Assembly: GCA_014360055.1 (NCBI GenBank) | Contig: JACIYH010000015.1 | Location: forward strand, 1-47,731 | DNA length: 47,731 nt | Source of the DNA: Bacillota bacterium | GTDB taxonomy: Bacteria > Bacillota > Sulfobacillia > JACIYH01 | Reading direction: 5' to 3' | Part shown: in pieces, positions 28,857 to 47,731 of the stretch | Numbering within the stretch: position 1 is the stretch's first letter | Layout of the letters: each line of letters opens with the position of its first letter | Notes under the pieces: generated by a model | What the model was told of the DNA's origin: nothing | What the model saw: the letters and a program-made list of their open reading frames with translations, nothing else | The model's database searches: none | Made by a program: the position numbers and the translations under genes

Positions 28857-29291
28857 ATGACGGACGAACGTGAAGTCCTGGAATGGTCGGTTTTCCTTTT
28901 CGCCCGCCATCCCGGCCGCGGCCTGGTGGCGGTGGGAGCGGTGCTGGCCTCCGCCGCCCTGGCCTGGTGGTGGTTCTCCGACCCGCTGGTGGTGGCCGCC
29001 ACCCTGGCCGTGCTGGGGGCGGCCCTGGCGCCTTATCTGTTCCCCCTGAGATACCGGCTCGACGAGAGGGGAGTGAGACTCAAGAACGGGCTGCTCTGGG
29101 ATTACCGCCCCTGGGAGAAGTTTTTCGACTACCGGGTTTTCCCCGACGCCGTCCAGCTCTATTTCGACCAGCGGGAGTTGCGGGGGCGCATCCTCAAAGG
29201 GCACCTTTTGTTTTTCGACCGGGAGGGGAAGCTGAACGATCGCATAGTGGATATGGTGAAGAGAAAGGTGCGGCGAACAGAGGAGGGTTGA
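28857..29291 (+). CDS. Small membrane protein with PH-like C-terminal domain, unknown
   Basis: A 144-residue protein not assigned to a named family. Two hydrophobic helices lie at about 20-40 and 44-63 with a short turn between them. The soluble remainder (YRLDERGVRLKNGLLWDYRPWEKFFDYRV...) resembles the strand-and-tryptophan pattern of bacterial PH-like (bPH2/YcxB-like) domains facing the cytoplasm. ATG at 28857. It is the first gene after the promoter and ends one base before the first MutL-type gene, so it is likely part of that operon, perhaps as a membrane anchor or sensor. Confidence 0.7.
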   Translation: MTDEREVLEWSVFLFARHPGRGLVAVGAVLASAALAWWWFSDPLVVAATLAVLGAALAPYLFPLRYRLDERGVRLKNGLLWDYRPWEKFFDYRVFPDAVQLYFDQRELRGRILKGHLLFFDREGKLNDRIVDMVKRKVRRTEEG

Positions 29292-29292
29292 A

Positions 29293-31193
29293 ATGAGCCG
29301 AAACGGGCCACGGACCATCCTGGCCACAGACGTGGGGAGCACCACCACGAAGGCCATCCTCATTGAGAACCTGGGCAGCGAGTACCGGCTGGTGGGGAGA
29401 GGGGAGATGCCCACCACCGTGGAGGCGCCCTGGGAGAACGTGATGATCGGGGTGCGCAAGTCGATACGGCGGCTCGAGGAGCTCCTCGAACGCCGTTTTT
29501 TGGACCCCTCGGGCCGCCTGATCCGACCGGCCGCGGGGAAGGAGGGTGTGGACTACTACGTGTCCACCTCTTCCGCCGGGGGCGGGTTGCAGATGATGGT
29601 GGCCGGGCTGGTTTCCACCATCAGTGCGGCTTCCGCGCACCGGGCCGCCCTGGGGGCGGGGGCCGTGGTGCTGGACGTCATCGCCGTGGACGACGGGCGT
29701 TCCACCTCGGAGCAGATCAGTCGCATCACCGAGCTGCGGCCTGACATCATCCTCATGTCCGGGGGCGTCGATGGGGGGTCGGTCTCCTACATCGCTGCCA
29801 TCGCGGAGACCATCGTTCAGGCCAACCCCCAGCCCCGCTTCGGGGCCACCTACAAGCTGCCCCTGGTGTACGCGGGAAACCGGGACGCCCAGGACCTCGT
29901 CCTCGGGGTGGCCGGCTCCGAGCTGGACGTGCACCTGGTGGAGAACCTGCGCCCCGCCACGACGTGGAGAACCTGGGCCCCGCCCGCGAGGCCATCCACG
30001 AGCTTTTCATGAACCACGTCATGGCGCAGGCGCCCGGGTACGGGGAACTGATGGAGTGGGTCGACGTGACCATCATGCCCACCCCGGGGGCGGTGGGCCG
30101 CATCATCAACCTGATGGCGCAGGAGTACAGGGCCAACATCATCGGGGTGGATATCGGAGGTGCTACCACCGACGTTTTCTCCAGCTTCGAGGGGACCTTC
30201 ACCCGCACGGTGAGTGCCAACCTGGGCATGTCCTATTCCATCTGTAACGTCCTGGAGGAAGCCAAGTTCGACAACATCCTGCGCTGGGTGCCCTTCGGGG
30301 TGGACGAGGTCAAGCTGTCCAACTGGATCGCCAACAAGATGGTGCGCCCCACCACCATCCCCATGACCCTGGACATGCTGGTGCTGGAGCAGGCCCTGGC
30401 CCGGGAAGCCCTGCGCCTGTCCTTCGCCCACCACAAGAGCCTGGCCCGCAAGGTGGAGAAGGAAGAGGCACGGGCAGCCTGGCACAGCGCCCAGCAGGAG
30501 ATCTGGCGCGCCGCCGGCCGGGAGATCATCGAGATGAGGAAGCTGGACATGCTGGTGGGCTCGGGTGGCGTCCTCTCCCACGCGCCCCGGCGCCAGCAGG
30601 CGGCCATGATGCTCATCGACGCCTTCCAGCCCGAGGGCGTGACCCAGCTGGCGGTGGACTCCATCTTCATGATGCCCCACCTGGGGGTCCTGTCCACCAC
30701 TTACCCGGAGATCGCAGCGGAGGTGTTCGACAAGGACTGCCTCATCCGCCTGGGCACCTGTATAGCACCGGTGGGCAAGCTGCGCGACGGGCAGCCTGCT
30801 CTGACGGTGCGGGCCCACCTCCCCGGCGGAACGGTAGAGGAGAAGCTGGCCTTCGGCCAGATCAAGCGCATCCCCCTGGAGGTGGGGCAGACGGCCAGGG
30901 TCGAGGTCACGCCCGTGGGGGCCCTGGATGTCGGAGCCGGCAGAGGACGGCGGCTGGAGGCCACCGTACACGGCGGCCTGGTGGGGATCATCATCGATGC
31001 CCGCGGACGCCCGCTGGAACTCCCCACCGACCCCGCCCGCCGCGTGCAGAAGTTGACGGAATGGATCGCGGCCATGGATCTCTATCCGCTGGACCTGCTC
31101 GGGAAGTATCAGGCCTCTCACGCACCGGGTAAGGCAGCGGCAGCAGGTAGGCCAGAGGGAGGGGAGAAGCGTGGCGGTTTCTGGCGTCGCTGA
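29293..31193 (+). CDS. MutL/GlmL-family ASKHA ATPase, copy 1 (frameshifted)
   Basis: About 633 residues when a single frameshift is repaired. Phosphate-1 loop DVGSTTTKA (13-21), SAGGGLQMMVAGL, LMSGGVDGGS, phosphate-2 loop GVDIGGATTD (about 284-293) and GSGGVLSHAP (about 422-431) define the MutL/GlmL family of the actin/Hsp70 fold, known as accessory proteins of B12-dependent aminomutases. The frame breaks near 29956: frame 1 carries ...VENLRPA, while HDVENLGPAREAIHELF continues in frame 3. Adding one base gives perfect length agreement with copy 2. The C-terminal 30 residues are a basic, low-complexity tail. ATG follows GAGGAGGGTTGAA. Confidence 0.85.
29953..29964 (+). other. One-base deletion site in MutL copy 1
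   Basis: Within the C-rich run around CCCGCCACGACG the reading frame changes. One extra base (for example GCCCAC instead of GCCAC) would restore the continuous protein and the exact residue count seen in copy 2. A real mutation, phase variation or a sequencing error are all possible. Confidence 0.75.
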
Positions 31194-32514
31194 GTACGTG
31201 GTGCAACGCGTGCGCAAGGTGCGCAAGCTGCCCCTCCCGGGAGAGGTGCTGGCGGGGCTGGGCGACCGGGTGGAACCCGATACCCCGGTAGCCCGCATCA
31301 GCCTGCGGCCCGGCATCCCCTGGGTGCTGCCGGTGGCACGCCTGCTGGGCATTCAGCCCGACGAACTGGGTAAGGCCATGCTGGTCAAGGTGGGAGACCA
31401 GGTCAAGACCAAGCAGGTCATCGCCATCGCGGAGAAGGGCCTGTACGGGCGGAAGGAGTACGAGTCGCCTACCGACGGGGTGGTAGAGGATATCTCCACC
31501 GCCTCCGGCCGGGTGATCATCAGGGAGGAGTTCGGCCGGGAGGAGCCCCCGGTGGAGGTGGATGTGGCTTTCGAGCTGGGTTGCCGTCCCCGGGACGTGC
31601 CCCGCTACATGCTCACCCCCGTGGGCAAGGAGGTCAAGAAGGGGCAGATGATAGCCAAGAAGGGCGAGCAGGCTGCCTTCTTCACCAAGACCTGCCTGGC
31701 TCCCGTTTCGGGCGTCATCGCTGACATCAACCCCCAGACGGGCATGGTGACCATCGCCCGGCCCTTCAAGGAAGTGGTGGTGAAGGCGTACATCAGCGGG
31801 GTGGTGACCGAGGTACTGCCCCGCCGCGGCGTGGCGGTGGAAACCCCGGCCGTGCGGCTCACCGGCATATTCGGGCTGGGACGGGAGACCCACGGCGACA
31901 TCCACGTGGTGGCCTCCCGGCCGGACGAACCCCTCACGGCCGATCTCATCGATGCCTCCTGCGCGGGCAAGGTCGTGGTGGGAGGCGGGTACGCCACCAA
32001 CGAGGCCCTGGTGAAAGCGCTGGAGGTGGGGGCGCGGGGCGTGGTCACCGCCACCGCCGACTACCTGGACCTGGTGCGCTCCCTGGGCGTGCGGCTGGGG
32101 GTGGGTATCACCGGCCAGGAAGACATCAACATCACGGTCATCCTCATAGAGGGCTTCGGCCAGTTGCAGATGCGCGAGCACGTCTTCCGGGCCCTGAAGG
32201 CCCTGGAGGGGCGGCAGGCTTCCATTAACGGGGCCACCCAGATCAGGGCGGGTGCCATACGCCCGGAAATCGTGGTCCCCTTCACCGATTACCAGGGACC
32301 GGTGGCCGAGGAGAGGGTGGCGGACGAAGAACTATCCCGTGGTCAGCGCGTGCGCCTCATCACGGACCCCTACTTCGGCCGCCTGGGCCACATCACCGAT
32401 ATCCCCAGGCTTCCCATGGTAGCGGAGACGGAGGCCCGCGTGCCCATGGTGGAGGTAGAGCTGGACGGGGGGGAGCGGGTGGTGGTCCCCCGCGCCAACG
32501 TGGAGCTGTTCTAG
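31171..32514 (+). CDS. Barrel-sandwich/KOW-like protein, copy 1, unknown function
   Basis: A 447-residue soluble protein with no named family known to me. Region 1 (about 10-175) has RnfC-like or lipoyl-like barrel-sandwich segments: KVGDQVKTKQVIA, SPTDGVVEDIS, TPVGKEVKKGQMIAKKG and APVSGVIADINPQTG, but no lipoyl-lysine motif. Region 2 (about 200-350) is alpha/beta with GKVVVGGGYATNEALVKALEVGARGVV and VGITGQEDINITVILIEGFG. The last 60 residues (RGQRVRLITDPYFGRLGHITDI...RVVVPRANVELF) resemble a KOW/SH3 barrel. GTG at 31171, after GGGAGGGGAGAAGC, overlaps MutL copy 1. Its fixed position after an ASKHA ATPase suggests a complex. Confidence 0.8.
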   Translation: MAVSGVAEYVVQRVRKVRKLPLPGEVLAGLGDRVEPDTPVARISLRPGIPWVLPVARLLGIQPDELGKAMLVKVGDQVKTKQVIAIAEKGLYGRKEYESPTDGVVEDISTASGRVIIREEFGREEPPVEVDVAFELGCRPRDVPRYMLTPVGKEVKKGQMIAKKGEQAAFFTKTCLAPVSGVIADINPQTGMVTIARPFKEVVVKAYISGVVTEVLPRRGVAVETPAVRLTGIFGLGRETHGDIHVVASRPDEPLTADLIDASCAGKVVVGGGYATNEALVKALEVGARGVVTATADYLDLVRSLGVRLGVGITGQEDINITVILIEGFGQLQMREHVFRALKALEGRQASINGATQIRAGAIRPEIVVPFTDYQGPVAEERVADEELSRGQRVRLITDPYFGRLGHITDIPRLPMVAETEARVPMVEVELDGGERVVVPRANVELF

Positions 32515-32553
32515 CCGCTGGCGCGGCTCCGCGGGGGCGCACGGCAGGGAGGG

Positions 32554-33000
32554 ATGAGTGTGCCGCGCTGGCTGGACAACTGGATGATCTACGAGATCAC
32601 TCCCCAGGAGCGCGACGAGCTGATCGAAAAGCTGGCCCGCCTGGTCAAGCGCTTCGGCCTCTATACTCCTGCCATTTTCGTGCTGGAGACGGGTAAGGAC
32701 CTGAGCTGGCTGGGCAGCCAGTTCATGCACCTCTTTTCCCCGGTCATCACCATAGTCTGGAACGATTTCCAGAAGCTTGCCTTCCTGCTGGAAGATAAGC
32801 AAAACGTGGAGCGCCTGATCCGGCGCATCGAAGAGATGTCCGAAGAGGAAAAGAAGGAGGCGCAGGCGCGCAGGAAGAAACGGAATGCCCCGCCTGCCTC
32901 TGCGCCTGCGCCAGAGCATCGTGTTCCGGAGAACACGAGCGCGTCAGCCACTGGGAAGCCCGGGAGGGAGAAGACCAGTGTCGGCAAAGGTGCCCGCTGA
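32554..33000 (+). CDS. Small protein between the two pairs, unknown
   Basis: A 148-residue protein. The first 100 residues are compact: PQERDELIEKLARLVKRFGLYTPAIFVLETGKDLSWLGSQ, then FSPVITIVWNDFQKLAFLLEDKQNVERLIRRIE. They contain one or two amphipathic or weakly hydrophobic segments that may sit on a membrane. The last 45 residues are a Lys/Arg/Pro/Ala-rich tail. ATG at 32554 or GTG at 32560; the latter is better spaced from AGGGAGGG. It overlaps MutL copy 2 by 23 bases. I recognise no family; the body reads as conserved, the tail does not. Confidence 0.72.
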   Translation: MSVPRWLDNWMIYEITPQERDELIEKLARLVKRFGLYTPAIFVLETGKDLSWLGSQFMHLFSPVITIVWNDFQKLAFLLEDKQNVERLIRRIEEMSEEEKKEAQARRKKRNAPPASAPAPEHRVPENTSASATGKPGREKTSVGKGAR

Positions 33001-34807
33001 GATCACGTCGGTCCTGGCCACCGACTGCGGCAGTACCACCACCAAAGCCATCCTCATCGAAAAGAGGGGTGAAGAGTACCGGCTGGTGGTACGGGGGGAA
33101 GCGCCCACCACCGTGGAGCGTCCCTTCGAGGACGTCACCATGGGCGTGCGCAATGCCGTGCGGGAGGTCGAGGAACTCACCGGCCGCAGGATCCTGTCGG
33201 AGGAGGGTATCATCACGCCCCGCCGGCCCGATGGCAGCGGTGTGGACCTGTACCTTTCCACCTCCAGCGCGGGGGGCGGGTTGCAGATGATGGTGGCGGG
33301 GGTGGTCAAGAGCATGACCACCGAGAGTGCCCAGCGCGCGGCGCTGGGTGCGGGGGCCATCGTCATGGACGCGGTGGCCGTGGACGACGGCCGCAAGACT
33401 CATGAGAAGATCGCCCTTATCCGCCACCTGCGTCCCGATATGATCCTGCTCTCGGGCGGGGTGGACGGGGGCACGATCACCCACGTGGTACAGATCGCCG
33501 AACTGCTGGCGGCGGCGGAGCCCCGGCCCCGCCTGGGCATCGGCTTCCGCCTGCCCGTGATCTACGCCGGCAACCGGGACGCCCGGCCCCACATGGAGCG
33601 CATCCTGGGGGAGCGCTTTGACCTCCGCATGGTGGAAAACCTGCGTCCGGTGCTGGAGAAGGAAGTGCTGGGGCCGGCGCGGGAGGAGATCCACAACCTG
33701 TTCATGGAGCACGTGATGGCCCAGGCGCCGGGATACAACAAGCTCATGACCTGGACGGGGGCTCCCATCATGCCCACGCCGGCCGCCGTGGGGCTGGGCA
33801 TGCAGACCGCCGCGCGCGAGTACGGCCTGAACGTGATCGGGGTGGACATCGGCGGGGCCACCACGGACGTGTTCTCCGTGTACGGGGAGCGCTTCGTGCG
33901 CACGGTGAGCGCCAACCTGGGCATGTCCTACTCCATCTGCAACGTGCTGCTGGAGGCGGGGCTGCCCAACATCGTGCGGTGGATACCGTTCCCGGTGGAT
34001 GAGGCGGACATCCGCAACCGCATCCGCAACAAGATGATCCGCCCCACCACCATCCCCCAGACCCTGGAGGAACTGGCCATCGAGCAGGCCCTGGCGCGGG
34101 AGGCCCTGCGGCTTGCCTTCGAGCACCACAAAACGCTGGCGGTGGGGCTCAAAGGAGTGCAGCGCCAGCGCACCATAGACGACACCTTCACCCAGACCGG
34201 CGCGGAGACATACATCAACCTCATGGAACTGGGGATGCTCATCGGGTCAGGCGGGGTGCTCTCCCATGCCCCCAGGCGGGTGCAGGCCGCGCTCATGATG
34301 CTGGATGCCTTTGGGCCTGAAGGCGTCACCCGCCTGGCGGTGGATTCCATCTTCATGATGCCCCAGCTGGGTGTGCTCTCCACCGTGCACGAGAAGGCGG
34401 CCGCCCAGGTGTTCGACCGGGACTGCCTGATCCACCTGGGTACCGCGGTGGCGCCGGTGGGTCAGGGTCGCGAAGGGGAGCCCTGCCTGGCGGTGACCCT
34501 GCACCTCCCGGGCGGTAAGACGGTGCGGGAAGAAGTCCCATTCGGTCACATCCGGCGTCTCCCCCTTGAGGTGGGTGAGGAGGCGGAGGCCGAACTTCAC
34601 CCCGCCCGGGGCTTCGACGTGGGGCGCGGCCGTGGTCACGCCCTGCGCACCACCCTGCACGGGGGGGTGGTGGGTATCATCCTGGACTGCCGGGGGCGCC
34701 CCCTGGCGCTGCCGTCTGAACCGGCCAGGCGCTGGCAGAAGCTCAGGGAGTGGGCCCTGGCGGTGGACCTCTGCCCGCGCGGGTTCCTCGAGAAGCTGCC
34801 CGGTTAG
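32978..34807 (+). CDS. MutL/GlmL-family ASKHA ATPase, copy 2
   Basis: A 609-residue intact paralog of copy 1. It has DCGSTTTKAILIEKRG (16-31), STSSAGGGLQMMVAG, LLSGGVDGG, GVDIGGATTDVFS (about 288-300), RTVSANLGMSYSICNVL and GSGGVLSHAPRR (about 423-434). Nucleotide-binding loops are complete, so ATP hydrolysis is likely. Known GlmL/MutL relatives are encoded beside glutamate mutase or ornithine aminomutase genes, which are absent here. GTG at 32978 after GGGAGGGAG gives the family N terminus; the frame upstream is the out-of-frame tail of the previous gene. Confidence 0.9.
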   Translation: MSAKVPAEITSVLATDCGSTTTKAILIEKRGEEYRLVVRGEAPTTVERPFEDVTMGVRNAVREVEELTGRRILSEEGIITPRRPDGSGVDLYLSTSSAGGGLQMMVAGVVKSMTTESAQRAALGAGAIVMDAVAVDDGRKTHEKIALIRHLRPDMILLSGGVDGGTITHVVQIAELLAAAEPRPRLGIGFRLPVIYAGNRDARPHMERILGERFDLRMVENLRPVLEKEVLGPAREEIHNLFMEHVMAQAPGYNKLMTWTGAPIMPTPAAVGLGMQTAAREYGLNVIGVDIGGATTDVFSVYGERFVRTVSANLGMSYSICNVLLEAGLPNIVRWIPFPVDEADIRNRIRNKMIRPTTIPQTLEELAIEQALAREALRLAFEHHKTLAVGLKGVQRQRTIDDTFTQTGAETYINLMELGMLIGSGGVLSHAPRRVQAALMMLDAFGPEGVTRLAVDSIFMMPQLGVLSTVHEKAAAQVFDRDCLIHLGTAVAPVGQGREGEPCLAVTLHLPGGKTVREEVPFGHIRRLPLEVGEEAEAELHPARGFDVGRGRGHALRTTLHGGVVGIILDCRGRPLALPSEPARRWQKLREWALAVDLCPRGFLEKLPG

Positions 34808-34819
34808 GAGGGGATGGGG

Positions 34820-36028
34820 ATGGCCCACGCATACACCCCCGGCCTGAAGGTATCCGAATACGCCGTGGTACGGCGGCAGCGGCGGCTGCCCATCCCGGGG
34901 CGGGTCCTGGTGGAGCAGGGCCAGCGGGTCAGTCCCGATACGGTGGTGGCAGAGGCGTCCCTGCCCGGCAACCCCAACACGGTGAACGCGGCGGCGGCGC
35001 TGGGCGCCGACCCCTCGGACCTGCCGCGCCTCATGGTGAAGAAGGTGGGGGACGCGGTCAAGAAAGGCGAGGTGATCGCCCGCTACCGGGCCCTGCTGGG
35101 CCTGGTTTCCGGCACCTGCACGTCGCCTGTGGACGGGACCATCGAGTCGGTGTCCGAGGTCACCGGGCAGGTCGTCGTGCGCGAGCCTCCCATCCCGGTG
35201 CAGGTGAGGGCCTACCTGGAGGGCGTGGTCACGGAGGTGATGCCCCGGGAAGGGGTGGTGGTGGAGGCGGAGGGCGCCTTCATCCAGGGCATTTTCGGGG
35301 TGGGAGGCGAGACCTACGGGGAGATCCAGGTGCTGGGGGCCGGGCCGGACGATGTGCTGGACGCGGCGGCGATCCTGCCCGCCCACCGGGGCAAGGTGCT
35401 GGTGGGGGGAGCGCTGGTCACGGGTGCCGCCCTGCGGCGGGCGGCGGAGGTGGGTGCCCGCGGGGTGGTGGCGGGCGGCATCATCGACCGGGACCTGGTG
35501 GCATTCCTGGGCCACGACATCGGGGTGGCCATCACCGGACACGAAGACATCCCCATCACCGTGATCGTGACCGAGGGTTTCGGCCGCATGACCATGGCCC
35601 ACCGCACCTTTGAATTGCTGCAATCCCTCAGCGGCCGTGTGGCCTCCCTCAACGGTGCCACCCAGATCCGGGCCGGCGTCATGCGCCCCGAGATCGTGGT
35701 CCCCGTGGATCGCCCCAGGCTCCCCCGCGTTGCAGGCGGTGCCGGCACCGGGCGCGCGGGTGGCGCGGAGCCCGCCGATGCGGGCGGGGCCGGGGGCGCG
35801 GGGCCGGCTGATGCCGACGCCGGGGAGGGGTCCCAGGGTCTGGTGCCCGGGACGCGCATCCGCATCATCCGCGAGCCCTACTTCGGGCAACTGGCCCACG
35901 TCACTGAACTGCCGCCCGAGTTGCAGGTGATCGAGACGGAGGCGAAGGTCCGCATCCTGCGGGCCCGCCTGGATTCCGGGGAACTGGTAACGGTGCCCCG
36001 CGCCAACGTGGAGATCATCGAAGACTAG
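34820..36028 (+). CDS. Barrel-sandwich/KOW-like protein, copy 2, unknown function
   Basis: A 402-residue paralog of the protein at 31171. Shared landmarks in the same order are RRLPIPGRVL, KVGDAVKKGEVIAR, SPVDGTIESVSEVTG, VVTEVMPREGVVVE, GIFGVGGETYGEI, HRGKVLVGGALVTGAALRRAAEVGARGVV, VAITGHEDIPITVIVTEGFG, SLNGATQIRAGVMRPEIVVP and a C-terminal PYFGQLAHVTEL...LVTVPRANVEII. It lacks one of the sandwich segments of copy 1 and has a 35-residue Gly/Ala linker before the KOW-like domain. ATG at 34820 is 6 bases from AGGAGGGG; ATG at 34814 is too close. Confidence 0.8.
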   Translation: MAHAYTPGLKVSEYAVVRRQRRLPIPGRVLVEQGQRVSPDTVVAEASLPGNPNTVNAAAALGADPSDLPRLMVKKVGDAVKKGEVIARYRALLGLVSGTCTSPVDGTIESVSEVTGQVVVREPPIPVQVRAYLEGVVTEVMPREGVVVEAEGAFIQGIFGVGGETYGEIQVLGAGPDDVLDAAAILPAHRGKVLVGGALVTGAALRRAAEVGARGVVAGGIIDRDLVAFLGHDIGVAITGHEDIPITVIVTEGFGRMTMAHRTFELLQSLSGRVASLNGATQIRAGVMRPEIVVPVDRPRLPRVAGGAGTGRAGGAEPADAGGAGGAGPADADAGEGSQGLVPGTRIRIIREPYFGQLAHVTELPPELQVIETEAKVRILRARLDSGELVTVPRANVEIIED

Positions 36029-41134: not shown

Positions 41135-41739
41135 GCGGCAGGCGGTTGCAGGTGCACCCCGGCGGTCCGGTCAATCCTATGGCGGGGTGGACGCGCCTCG
41201 TCAACCCCTGGCGGGCCGCCCTGAATTTCCTGGTGCTGTACCTGTGCCGGTTCCTGCCCTGGGTGGGTGTGAAGAGGTTCCTGTACCGTTGCCTGGGGAT
41301 GCGGGTGGGCCGGGACGTGGCGGTGGGGCTGGGGGCCATGTTCGACATCTTCTTCCCCCACCTCATCACGCTGGGGGACAACTGCGTGATCGGGTACAAC
41401 GCCACCATCCTGGCTCATGAATTCCTGGTGCGGGAGTGGCGGACCGGCCCGGTGGAGGTGGGGCGGGACGTCCTCATCGGGGCCAACGCCACCGTACTGC
41501 CCGGTGTGCGCATCGGGGACGGGGCCGTGGTGGGGGCAGGGGCGGTGGTGACCCGGGACGTGCCGCCCGGGGCCTTCGTGGTCGGTGTCCCGGCCCGGGT
41601 GGTCCCGCGTGGCACTCCGGCCGAGCGTCCGGTGGTCATGGATGGCACCGTGGCGGAAGCCCCGGTGGTCCCAGGTGGCGCCGCGCGGGAGCCGGGGGTG
41701 GCCCCCGATGGGGGGCAGGAGCCGGACGAGGTCTGGTGA
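41131..41739 (+). CDS. Hexapeptide-repeat acyltransferase
   Basis: A 202-residue left-handed beta-helix protein. [67 protein letters not shown] are the hexapeptide coils of the maltose/galactoside O-acetyltransferase group. A hydrophobic stretch at about 30-45 precedes the helix. The substrate is unknown; it could be a sugar or cell-wall component. TTG at 41131 overlaps the tsaD stop; ATG at 41179 is an alternative. The last 40 residues are low complexity. Confidence 0.85.
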
Positions 41740-41756
41740 TGCTGGGAAGGGAAGGG

Positions 41757-42920
41757 ATGGACTTGGAAGTCAAAGAGTTCCTGGAGAAGGTGACGGCGGC
41801 CTCCGGGGTCTCGGGTTTTGAAGGCACCGTGGCTTCCCTGATCCGGGAGGCGTGGGCGCCCCTTGCGGACGAGATCCGGACCGATACCATGGGGAGCCTG
41901 ATCGCGCGGCGTGCCGCCCGGGCAGACGGCGGCTTGGCTCCCCGGCCCGCCGGTGCGGGGCCCGCGGCGGCCGACGGCCCTGCCGGTACCCAGGTTGCGG
42001 GTGAGGGCTGGCGGGAGGCGGGCGGGCGGGGGCCGCTGCGCGTGATGATGGCGGCCCACATGGACGAGATCGGCCTCATGGTGAGCAAGATCGAAGAGGG
42101 GGGATTCCTGCGTTTTACCACGGTAGGCGGGTTCGACCGGCGCGTGCTGCCCGCCCAGGAGGTGCTGGTGCACGGGCGCGAGGACCTGCCCGGGGTGATA
42201 GGGGTGAAGCCGCCCCACCTCCTGCCCCGGGAGGAGGCGGAGAAGCCGTACAAGATGGAGGACATGTACATCGACGTGGGCCTCGAGGAAACGCGGGTGC
42301 GGGACCTGGTGCGGGTGGGGGACCCCATCACCGTGGGGTACGGGTGCCGATCCCTGCAGGGGGAACTGGTCGCCGGCAAGGGCATGGACGACCGCGCCGG
42401 GGTGGCCACCCTGCACGCCTGCCTGCAGGAACTGGCCCGCCTGCAGCATCCGCATGATGTGTTCCTCGTGGCCACCGTGCAGGAAGAAGTGGGCCTGAAG
42501 GGGGCCGTCACCTCGGCATACGGCATCGCTCCCGACGTCGGGGTGGCGGTGGACGTGGAGTTCGCCGAGCAGCCCGGCCTGCCCGAGGACCTGACGGTGG
42601 AACTGGACAAGGGTCCCGTGATCGCGGTGGGGCCCAACATCCACCCCTACGTGTTCTCGGTACTGGAGAAGGTGGCGAAGGAAGAGGGGATCCCCCATCA
42701 GGTGCGGGTGGTGCCGGGGCGCTCGGGAACCGACGCCTGGGCCATCCAGGTCACCAGGGAGGGCATCCCCACCGGCCTGATCGGCATCCCGCTGCGCTAC
42801 ATGCACACCAGCGTGGAGGTGGCGTCGGTGGCCGATATTAAGCGGGCGGGGCGGCTGCTGGCCCGCTTCGTGATGGCCCTGGACGCGGAGGCGCTGGCCT
42901 GCTGGAGGTGGGAAGCATGA
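41757..42920 (+). CDS. M42-family aminopeptidase, copy 1
   Basis: A 387-residue co-catalytic metallopeptidase. Ligands and catalytic residues are in MAAHMDEIGL (His, Asp), GMDDRAG (bridging Asp), VQEEVGLKG (catalytic Glu and ligand Glu), VDVEFAEQ (Asp) and LRYMHT (last His). M42 enzymes form dodecameric tetrahedral particles that trim peptides. A 35-residue Gly/Ala/Pro-rich loop interrupts the fold just before MMAAHMDE. ATG at 41757 is 6 bases after GGGAAGG; ATG at 41739 is possible. First of three paralogs. Confidence 0.92.
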   Translation: MDLEVKEFLEKVTAASGVSGFEGTVASLIREAWAPLADEIRTDTMGSLIARRAARADGGLAPRPAGAGPAAADGPAGTQVAGEGWREAGGRGPLRVMMAAHMDEIGLMVSKIEEGGFLRFTTVGGFDRRVLPAQEVLVHGREDLPGVIGVKPPHLLPREEAEKPYKMEDMYIDVGLEETRVRDLVRVGDPITVGYGCRSLQGELVAGKGMDDRAGVATLHACLQELARLQHPHDVFLVATVQEEVGLKGAVTSAYGIAPDVGVAVDVEFAEQPGLPEDLTVELDKGPVIAVGPNIHPYVFSVLEKVAKEEGIPHQVRVVPGRSGTDAWAIQVTREGIPTGLIGIPLRYMHTSVEVASVADIKRAGRLLARFVMALDAEALACWRWEA

Positions 42921-44056
42921 CTGCGCACGCCCAAGACCCCGGGCGCGAGACGCACCCCGGGTGGGAAGCGAGTGCCAACCGCGAGACCTCCGCCCCCCCG
43001 GCGCGGGGGCCGTACGACGAAGAGGCGGAACTGTTGGGGCAGTTGAGCGAGGCGGCGGGGATCTCCGGCTGGGAGGGAGAGGTACGGGGGATCATCCGCG
43101 GCCAACTGGAGAAGATGGGGGTGTGCTACCGCACCGACCACCTGGGTAACATCATCGCCTACCGGGGACCGGACGATGAGCACGCCGGCCTGCGGGTGAT
43201 GCTGGCCGCCCACATGGACGAGGTGGGGCTGGTGGTCTCTGGCATAGACAAGTCCGGCTTGCTCCGCTTCCGCAAGGTGGGGGGCATCGATGACCGGGTG
43301 CTGGTCTCCAAGAGTGTCCTGGTGGGAAAGAACCGCGTGCCCGGCGTCATCGGCGCCAAGCCCATCCACCTGCAGCAGCCCAAGGAGCAGGAGAACCCCT
43401 TCCGCGCAGAGGAACTGTTCGTGGACATCGGTGCCAGGAACAAGGAAGAGGCTGAGAAGGTGGCGAAAGTGGGTGACCCCATCGTCTTCGCCACCCGCTT
43501 CACGCGCCTGGACGAGCGGCGCGCCCGCGGGAAGGCCTTCGACGACCGCGCGGGGTGCCTGGTGCTGCTGGGTGCTCTACAGGAAAAGTACCGCGTTCCC
43601 GTTTACGGCGTATTCACGGTCCAGGAAGAGGTGGGGCTGCGGGGAGCGCAGGTGGCCGCCTACGCCATCGCACCGGGCCTGGGCCTGGCCCTGGAGGGAA
43701 CGGTGTGCTCTGACACCCCCGGCTCTGAGGAGCACCTCCAGGCCACCAGGATGGGCGCCGGGCCGGCCATCTCGGTGATGGACGCCGCCACCATCCACAA
43801 CCGGCGGGTGATCGAGCGCCTGGTGGAGGTGGCCGGAAAGGCCGGTATCCCCTATCAACTGCGCCGCACCACCTCGGGCGGCAACGATGCCGGGCGCATC
43901 CACCTGGCCCGCGCCGGGGCGGCGGCGGGAGGGCTGTCGGTGCCGTGCCGCTACATCCATTCCCCGGCTTCGGTGCTGGACCTGGAGGACGTGGTGAACA
44001 CGCGCCGGTTGCTGGTCGAATTCCTGCACAGCCTGGAAGAGGGGTGGACGCCGTGA
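42917..44056 (+). CDS. M42-family aminopeptidase, copy 2
   Basis: A 379-residue paralog with intact metal motifs: LAAHMDEVGL, FDDRAGC, VQEEVGLRG, LEGTVCSD and CRYIHSP. It has a 30-residue low-complexity N-terminal leader and no insertion before the His-Asp motif. The ligand in LEGTVCSD is Glu, where copies 1 and 3 have Asp; both residues are known in the family. ATG at 42917 follows GGAGGTGGGAAGC and overlaps copy 1 by 4 bases. Confidence 0.92.
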   Translation: MTAHAQDPGRETHPGWEASANRETSAPPARGPYDEEAELLGQLSEAAGISGWEGEVRGIIRGQLEKMGVCYRTDHLGNIIAYRGPDDEHAGLRVMLAAHMDEVGLVVSGIDKSGLLRFRKVGGIDDRVLVSKSVLVGKNRVPGVIGAKPIHLQQPKEQENPFRAEELFVDIGARNKEEAEKVAKVGDPIVFATRFTRLDERRARGKAFDDRAGCLVLLGALQEKYRVPVYGVFTVQEEVGLRGAQVAAYAIAPGLGLALEGTVCSDTPGSEEHLQATRMGAGPAISVMDAATIHNRRVIERLVEVAGKAGIPYQLRRTTSGGNDAGRIHLARAGAAAGGLSVPCRYIHSPASVLDLEDVVNTRRLLVEFLHSLEEGWTP

Positions 44057-45141
44057 AAGAGGAGACGCGCGAACTGATCCGGAACCTGACGGAAGCCTTC
44101 GGGCCCTCCGGTCAGGAAGAGCAGGTGCGGGAACTGATCGCCTCGCTGATGCGCCCGCACGTGGACGGGGTGCGCACCGACGCCCTGGGCAACCTCATCT
44201 GCACGCGAGGAGCGCGTCGGGTCGGCACCGCCGGCGGGCCGGCTGCCACTGCGGGGCGGCCCGGCGCCGCGGGCACAGCCACCGCGGAGGCGGGGGCGGG
44301 CGGGGGCAAAAAGGTGATGCTGGCCGCCCACATGGACGAGATCGGCATCATCGTCACCCACATAGACGACAAGGGGTTCCTGCGCTTCGGGACCATCGGC
44401 GGTGTCATGCCCCACCGGTGCCTGGGCCAGCGGGTCGTGTTCGCCAACGGCACCGTGGGGGTGTTTGGCCACGAGAAGCTGGACGACCCCAAGGACCTGA
44501 AATTCGAGAGGATGTTCGTGGATATCGGTGCATCTTCCCGCGCCGAGGCAGAGGAGAAGGTCAGGATCGGCGATGCCGCCGCCTTTACCCGGCCGCTGGA
44601 GAGGGCCGGCAACCGGCTGGTGGCCAAGGCCATGGACGACCGCATCGGCTGTGCCGTGCTGGTGGAGGTGGCGCGGCGGCTGGGGACCTCACCCCATGAG
44701 GTGTACTTCGTCTTCACCGTGCAGGAAGAGGTGGGACTGCGGGGCGCCCGCACGGCCGCCTTCGGCCTGGCCCCCGACGTGGCCATCGCGGTTGACATCA
44801 CCCTGACCGGTGATACACCGAAGGCGGAGACCATGGAGGTGAGCCTGGGCAAGGGCGCCGCGATCAAAGTTAAGGACGCCAGCCTGATCTGTCACCCCGG
44901 CCTGCGCCGGTCCCTCGAGGAGACGGCCCGCGCCCACGGGATAGCGTACCAGCTGGAGATCCTGGAGCGGGGCGGCACCGATGCGGGCGCCATGCAGCTC
45001 ACCCGGGAGGGTGTTCCGGCCGGGGTGATATCGGTGCCCTGCCGCTACGCGCACACGCCCTCGGAGATGGTCGACGAGGGAGATGTGGAAGCCTGCATCG
45101 AACTGCTGGTGAAGGCCCTGGAGGGACCCCTTGAGTGGTAG
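44053..45141 (+). CDS. M42-family aminopeptidase, copy 3
   Basis: A 362-residue paralog. Motifs are LAAHMDEIGI, MDDRIGC, VQEEVGLRG, VDITLTGDTPK and CRYAHTPSE, all complete. A 35-residue Gly/Ala/Thr-rich loop lies before the His-Asp motif, at the same site as in copy 1. GTG at 44053 overlaps the copy 2 stop and follows GAGGGG. Three overlapping M42 genes suggest co-translation and perhaps mixed oligomers; specificity of each is unknown. Confidence 0.93.
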   Translation: MKEETRELIRNLTEAFGPSGQEEQVRELIASLMRPHVDGVRTDALGNLICTRGARRVGTAGGPAATAGRPGAAGTATAEAGAGGGKKVMLAAHMDEIGIIVTHIDDKGFLRFGTIGGVMPHRCLGQRVVFANGTVGVFGHEKLDDPKDLKFERMFVDIGASSRAEAEEKVRIGDAAAFTRPLERAGNRLVAKAMDDRIGCAVLVEVARRLGTSPHEVYFVFTVQEEVGLRGARTAAFGLAPDVAIAVDITLTGDTPKAETMEVSLGKGAAIKVKDASLICHPGLRRSLEETARAHGIAYQLEILERGGTDAGAMQLTREGVPAGVISVPCRYAHTPSEMVDEGDVEACIELLVKALEGPLEW

Positions 45142-45800: not shown

Positions 45801-45880
45801 GCCTGGGGAGTCGCCGGGGGCGGTTCTCAGGCGGCGGGCCGGCCGGGCGTGCGGCAGGATCTGGACTGGGTACTGTGGGG

Positions 45881-46441
45881 GTGTCCGCATTGAGCGAGTG
45901 TGGGGTGCCGGGGGGTCCGGCGGACCGGTGGCCTTTTGGGTCACCGCAGGTCGACCCCACGGCTTTCGTGGCACCGGGGGCGTGGCTGATCGGCAGGGTG
46001 GTGGTAGGGCCCGATTCCTCGGTGTGGTACGGCGCCTGCCTGCGGGGGGACGAGAACTGGGTCCGGGTGGGGCGGGAGTCCAACATCCAGGATGGTGCCA
46101 CGCTGCACCCCACCGGAGAGCATGAGGTAGTGGTGGGTGACCGGGTCACCGTGGGGCACCGGGCCATCCTCCACGCCTGCACCGTGGAAGATGACTGCCT
46201 CATCGGCATGGGGGCCATCGTGCTCGACGGTGCGCGCATCGGCCGGGGGTCGCTGGTGGGGGCAGGTGCGCTCGTGCCCCCCGGGAAAGAGATACCCCCC
46301 GGGAGCGTGGTGCTGGGGGTGCCGGGGAAGGTGGTGCGACCGGCCGGGGAGCGCGACGCCCACGAGATCGCCTATTCGGCCGCCCGTTATGTAGAGCTCA
46401 CCCGCATCTACCGCCTCCACGCCAGCCCTCCACCGTCATAA
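45881..46441 (+). CDS. Gamma-class carbonic anhydrase-like protein
   Basis: A 186-residue left-handed beta-helix protein. [64 protein letters not shown] and [31 protein letters not shown] are diagnostic of the YrdA/CaiE/gamma-CA group. The three expected zinc histidines (LHP, GHRA, LHAC) are present. Many such homologs show no measurable activity, so the catalytic role is open. The start is uncertain: GTG at 45881 or TTG at 45890, with no strong SD. Confidence 0.85.
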
Positions 46442-46590
46442 CTTCCGCCACAGGGGCGCGTCCTCCCGCGTGCCGATGCGCCCCCGCGTCCAGATGGGTG
46501 CCCGTTCGCACGGGGCATTTTGGCGGTGACGGGGGGAACCATAGCAGGCGGAGCGCGCGGGCGCGCCTGGGCCGGCGGGCGGGTGTTCCC

Positions 46591-47037
46591 TTGCAGTTCC
46601 TGGCTTTGCTGGGCGCCGCACTCAGCGGGGCGGCCATGACCGGACAGGCGGCCATCAACGGGGCCCTGTCCAGGCTGGTGGGGCTGGTGGCGACCACCTT
46701 CGTGGTGCAGGCGGTGGGGCTGCTCGCCAGCGGACTGGTGCTGCTGGGCGCCCGCTCCTTCCGGCACCTGGCCGGGATGGGCGGAGCCCCGCCCCTGCTC
46801 TGGACAGGGGGCCTCCTGGGGGCCTTCATCATCTTCACTATGGCTTTCGTCATGCCCCGGCTGGGGGCCGGGCTGGCCGTGGCGGTGGTGCTCACCGCCC
46901 AACTGCTGACCGCCCTGGTTTTCGACCACTTCGGCCTGCTGGGAATGCCGCGCGCGCCGGTCAACTGGGTCCGCCTGCTGGGAGCCGGGTTGCTGGTGGC
47001 CGGGGCCTGGCTGGTGAAGTATTCTACCCCCGGCTGA
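46591..47037 (+). CDS. DMT-family (DUF606/YdcZ) transporter half
   Basis: A 148-residue membrane protein with five hydrophobic helices. [20 protein letters not shown] near the N terminus and the [12 protein letters not shown] segment match the DUF606 family of small DMT-type transporters, which often work as pairs or dimers. TTG at 46591 gives the normal length; the frame upstream is Arg-rich and unconserved. Substrate unknown. The 150 bases before it hold no clear promoter. Confidence 0.82.

Positions 47038-47731
<694 letters not shown>

Follow-up and report, generated by a model that had tools for sequence, protein, structure and literature searches.

ATPases of the GlmL/MutL family (PF13941; NCBIfam NF040745, NF040744 and TIGR01319) are chaperone-like proteins linked to adenosylcobalamin mutases. 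GlmL itself, in the account given in PMC4682846, is a reactivating chaperone of glutamate mutase. With the DNA mismatch-repair protein MutL, the MutL-like ATPases considered here have only the name in common. Mismatch-repair MutL has a different fold from the GlmL/MutL ATPases.

Genes interrupted by a frame transition in a single genome are likewise a described phenomenon. In its treatment of 'Singletons', PMC3711429 expects single-genome frame transitions that are validated by BLASTp to stem from sequencing errors and not from genuine indels, an expectation formed on complete genomes up to 2013 that may not carry over to the present case. The locus analysed here, in a 47,731-nt stretch of DNA from a Bacillota bacterium (contig JACIYH010000015.1; the window), belongs to this kind: the break in the first of its MutL-like ATPase genes (copy 1) is also confined to one genome and is supported by homology and Pfam matches, and nothing notable distinguishes it from the cases treated under that heading. 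Here we argue that the break very probably reflects the loss, not programmed, of a single base at a short run of C. The loss is confined to this assembly, and the MutL/GlmL-type ASKHA ATPase gene that it interrupts is conserved in other respects.

A frame break in a GlmL/MutL-type ATPase gene

A preliminary description, made from the sequence alone, had reported a frame shift near position 29956, in a C-rich run inside the first MutL ATPase. The shift is present in the assembly: adjoining parts of the PF13941 profile lie in two different frames (Table 1), joined by a junction of 32 nt. The two open reading frames (ORFs) start 671 nt apart (29293 against 29964), which places the second part in the −1 frame. 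From 29745 onwards the −1 frame is open, and a stop codon at 30010–30012 closes the 0 frame, giving a 0/−1 overlap of 29745–30012; homology puts the switch between about 29947 and 29979. In a DNA alignment of seven sequences there is a single one-column gap, at the C run, within which the exact base cannot be placed. The run consists of four C in the window copy and of five in one congener (G002) and two other relatives (L015 and L022); in the other congener (G001) and in L007 the matching stretch does not consist of C alone.

Table 1 Features of copy 1 and its surroundings (window coordinates)
Feature	Position	Strand	Evidence
Copy 1, N-terminal half, followed by about 20 out-of-frame residues up to a TGA stop	29293..30012	+	Translation (ORF of 239 aa); PF13941 profile positions 1–183, 186.7 bits, cut-off 27 (Pfam)
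Copy 1, C-terminal half, −1 frame	29964..31193	+	ORF of 409 aa; PF13941 profile positions 187–450, 199.7 bits, cut-off 27 (Pfam)
C run at the frame break	29952..29955	+	DNA alignment; 32-nt junction
Two 21-nt imperfect direct repeats, starts 26 nt apart, spanning the break	29938..29984	+	Repeat search; second copy 95% identical
Barrel-sandwich protein gene (RnfC_N/NqrA_N-like)	31171..32514	+	Pfam; gene pair in relatives

The preliminary description had added that one extra base would make the protein colinear with the second copy, with 12 residues between the motifs ENLRP and GPARE in both. The junction measures 33 nt elsewhere against 32 nt here, and the residue count needs correcting: seven residues lie between the two motifs in copy 2 and in the intact relatives that carry the motif, and the figure of 12 is reached by counting from the first residue of ENLRP (E) to that of GPARE (G).

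Copy 1 is a GlmL/MutL-type ATPase, not a mismatch-repair MutL. Both of its halves, and copy 2, score above the PF13941 gathering cut-off of 27 and match profiles of the family, and no mismatch-repair family is among the Pfam matches of either half or of copy 2. Copy 2 (32885–34807, plus strand), which lies 1.7 kb downstream, is uninterrupted at 640 aa and matches PF13941 positions 1–450 with 421.7 bits (cut-off 27); a third copy, an uninterrupted ORF of 606 aa, is found elsewhere in the genome, on a different contig (G000:C57). Against the GlmL equivalog profile (NF040745, cut-off 475 bits), the halves reach 108.1 and 93.2 bits and the uninterrupted copy 2 reaches 220.7, and copy 2 is below the GlmL subfamily cut-off too (156.9 against 204.05 bits). 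The MutL-like proteins of the window are a divergent branch of the GlmL/MutL family. Among the 20 window ORFs and 10 further ORFs scanned, a subset of the genes, none matched a B12-dependent mutase family.

Conservation across the break

We compared the junction in 59 loci from the genome collection and in two other genomes of the genus (G001 and G002), matching the two halves of the gene separately. Measured from the end of a fixed N-terminal anchor to the start of a fixed C-terminal anchor, and thus covering the junction rather than the rest of the gene, the distance was 33 nt in 98 of 100 rows and 32 nt in two (L001 and L064), both of which are the window copy. Six loci contributed no row, five with matches that stopped short of the anchors (L058, L063, L073, L074 and L075) and one with no match (L004). 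Once places entered twice were removed (the window copy plus its genome's copies 2 and 3), 97 distinct places remained, of which 96 have 33 nt and the window copy alone has 32 nt. Judged by position and identity, orthologues of copy 1 account for 39 of the distinct places (L005–L040, L061 and the two congeners, L065 and L066). In both congeners the frame is open across the gene, encoding proteins of 640 and 645 aa, and the C-terminal half is 93% and 89% identical to that of the window.

Both halves of copy 1 still show purifying selection on the window branch. In a three-way comparison with the two congeners, from which codons differing in all three were excluded (20 in the N-terminal half and 41 in the C-terminal half), the window branch carries 3 nonsynonymous and 21 synonymous changes in the N-terminal half and 12 and 49 in the C-terminal half. 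Pooled, these make 15 nonsynonymous to 70 synonymous changes, where about 2.7–3.0 nonsynonymous changes per synonymous change are expected with no selection; the neutral share of the branch is at most about 11.5% (95% Poisson bound, simple site counts). The halves do not differ from eight hand-chosen neighbouring genes pooled (142 nonsynonymous to 447 synonymous changes; Fisher p 0.22). Left out of that pool were UDG (3/25 nonsynonymous/synonymous changes on the window branch), a DUF483-like gene (17.2/33.8) and the region at 28857–29288 (17.2/20.8); including them would shift the comparison ratio upwards, not downwards. No relaxation of selection after the break is found, and we reject the idea that copy 1 is an old pseudogene. 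Given the selection on both halves and the low neutral share, the break is either very recent or absent from the organism.

Origin of the break

The preliminary description had left three origins side by side: recent, programmed or an assembly error. A programmed −1 ribosomal frameshift, yielding a short and a long product, is extremely unlikely. One strict slippery heptamer does lie inside the 0/−1 overlap, at 29874, where it is the sole strict site, but it is about 75–80 nt upstream of the frame change placed by homology, and no strict X XXY YYZ heptamer is found at the shift itself. Within the 40-nt stretch compared for each copy, 7 of 100 rows, corresponding to 5 of 97 distinct places, contain the heptamer; the other copy-1 orthologues all lack it there, and the frame change recurs at none of the 96 other distinct places. 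With no heptamer at the shift and no frame change conserved among relatives, we reject programmed frameshifting; a recent event and an error both agree with a private break and with purifying selection. We give just as little credence to the C run being a reversible phase-variation switch, or a lineage-specific recoding site, that would tune copy 1 and also, by way of the overlap at its start, the downstream barrel-sandwich protein. Gene fission, in which the second half would be made as a separate protein from GTG 29964, ATG 30009 or ATG 30021, is very improbable as well: in-frame start codons do exist at these three positions, but the cut splits a single conserved ATPase domain, and GTG 29964, which had been suggested as a separate start, is an internal valine codon in the intact genes of both congeners (G001 and G002) and likewise in L015, in frame in all of them. 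By eye, none of the three candidate starts is preceded by a Shine–Dalgarno sequence, and the suggestion does not hold up.

Because no relative examined lacks the missing base, the unprogrammed one-base loss is most likely an ordinary error of sequencing or else a mutation of very recent origin. Our judgement leans slightly towards an assembly or sequencing error. Homopolymer errors typically involve runs longer than this one, which counts against this cause, and so, to some extent, does the quality of the assembly. When ORFs conserved between the congeners were used as queries against sampled parts of the window's assembly, frame splits appeared for 2 of 75 G002 queries and 1 of 80 G001 queries, and of these only the split in the MutL gene was clean; the same test on the congeners found 2 splits in 246 queries for G001 and 7 in 250 for G002. 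The second split in the window's assembly, on the minus strand at 46435–45267 with identities of 59% and 53%, does not count as clean and runs antisense to a plus-strand ORF. A generally poor assembly is thus not supported: by this measure the window's assembly has no marked excess of such breaks. The competing cause, a genuine mutation, is a real possibility that we hold to be the less probable: replication slippage would have removed one base from the C run, possibly with the aid of the 21-nt repeat that lies 26 nt downstream, leaving copy 1 as a very young null allele. A short C run with an imperfect repeat beside it is consistent with this, as are a single clean split in 75–80 queries from an assembly that is not obviously error-ridden and the presence in the genome of two further MutL copies with uninterrupted ORFs (640 and 606 aa). 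Against it, all of the 96 other distinct places are in frame across the junction, and the halves show no decay after the break, with selection that looks like that on neighbouring genes; any genuine mutation must therefore be very young.

Were the mutation genuine, translation would end at 30012 and the product, missing everything past profile position 183, would be inactive. Among the segments lost would be GVDIGGATTD and GSGG, which presumably bind nucleotide. The gene is best annotated as interrupted, neither as two genes nor as a case of recoding, and claims that the organism has lost copy 1 should await reads.

The barrel-sandwich gene and other features

The ORF of the barrel-sandwich protein starts inside the last codons of copy 1; if the break is genuine, lost translational coupling could therefore lower expression of this protein. 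The barrel-sandwich gene directly follows MutL in 54 of the 59 relatives' loci (L005–L063), which are labelled as coming from several phyla. In two of the remaining five (L022 and L060) the sequence stops at MutL or within it, in another two only about 135 and about 435 nt are left after it (L049 and L052, respectively), and the last (L054) has room after MutL and no barrel-sandwich match. The pair is present three times in the window's genome (at 29293–36028 and L115:10882–13879). DUF6754 is encoded downstream of the pair in L043 and L046, the only loci in which it was sought there and found, and some 8 kb upstream of MutL copy 3 in the window's genome (L115). Our literature search returned no paper naming DUF6754 and none combining PF13941 and RnfC terms. 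As far as we have seen, the MutL-like ATPase and the barrel-sandwich protein, with DUF6754 nearby, form an apparently uncharacterised conserved set, and the recurrence of the ATPase and barrel-sandwich pair in many lineages makes it worth studying in its own right.

A clean-looking frame split also occurs in another gene of one congener (G002:C23:232515–233910), the two parts of which are each 78% identical to G001. Elsewhere in the window, three M42-type peptidase genes lie apparently in tandem at 41436–45141, two of them identified by Pfam and the third suggested by a repeat. DNA identity between the window and G001 is patchy, at 85–92% up to 14.7 kb, 81–82% over 14.7–39.5 kb and 86–92% past 39.5 kb, except for 45869–47123 at 81%, a pattern that may reflect recombination between lineages.
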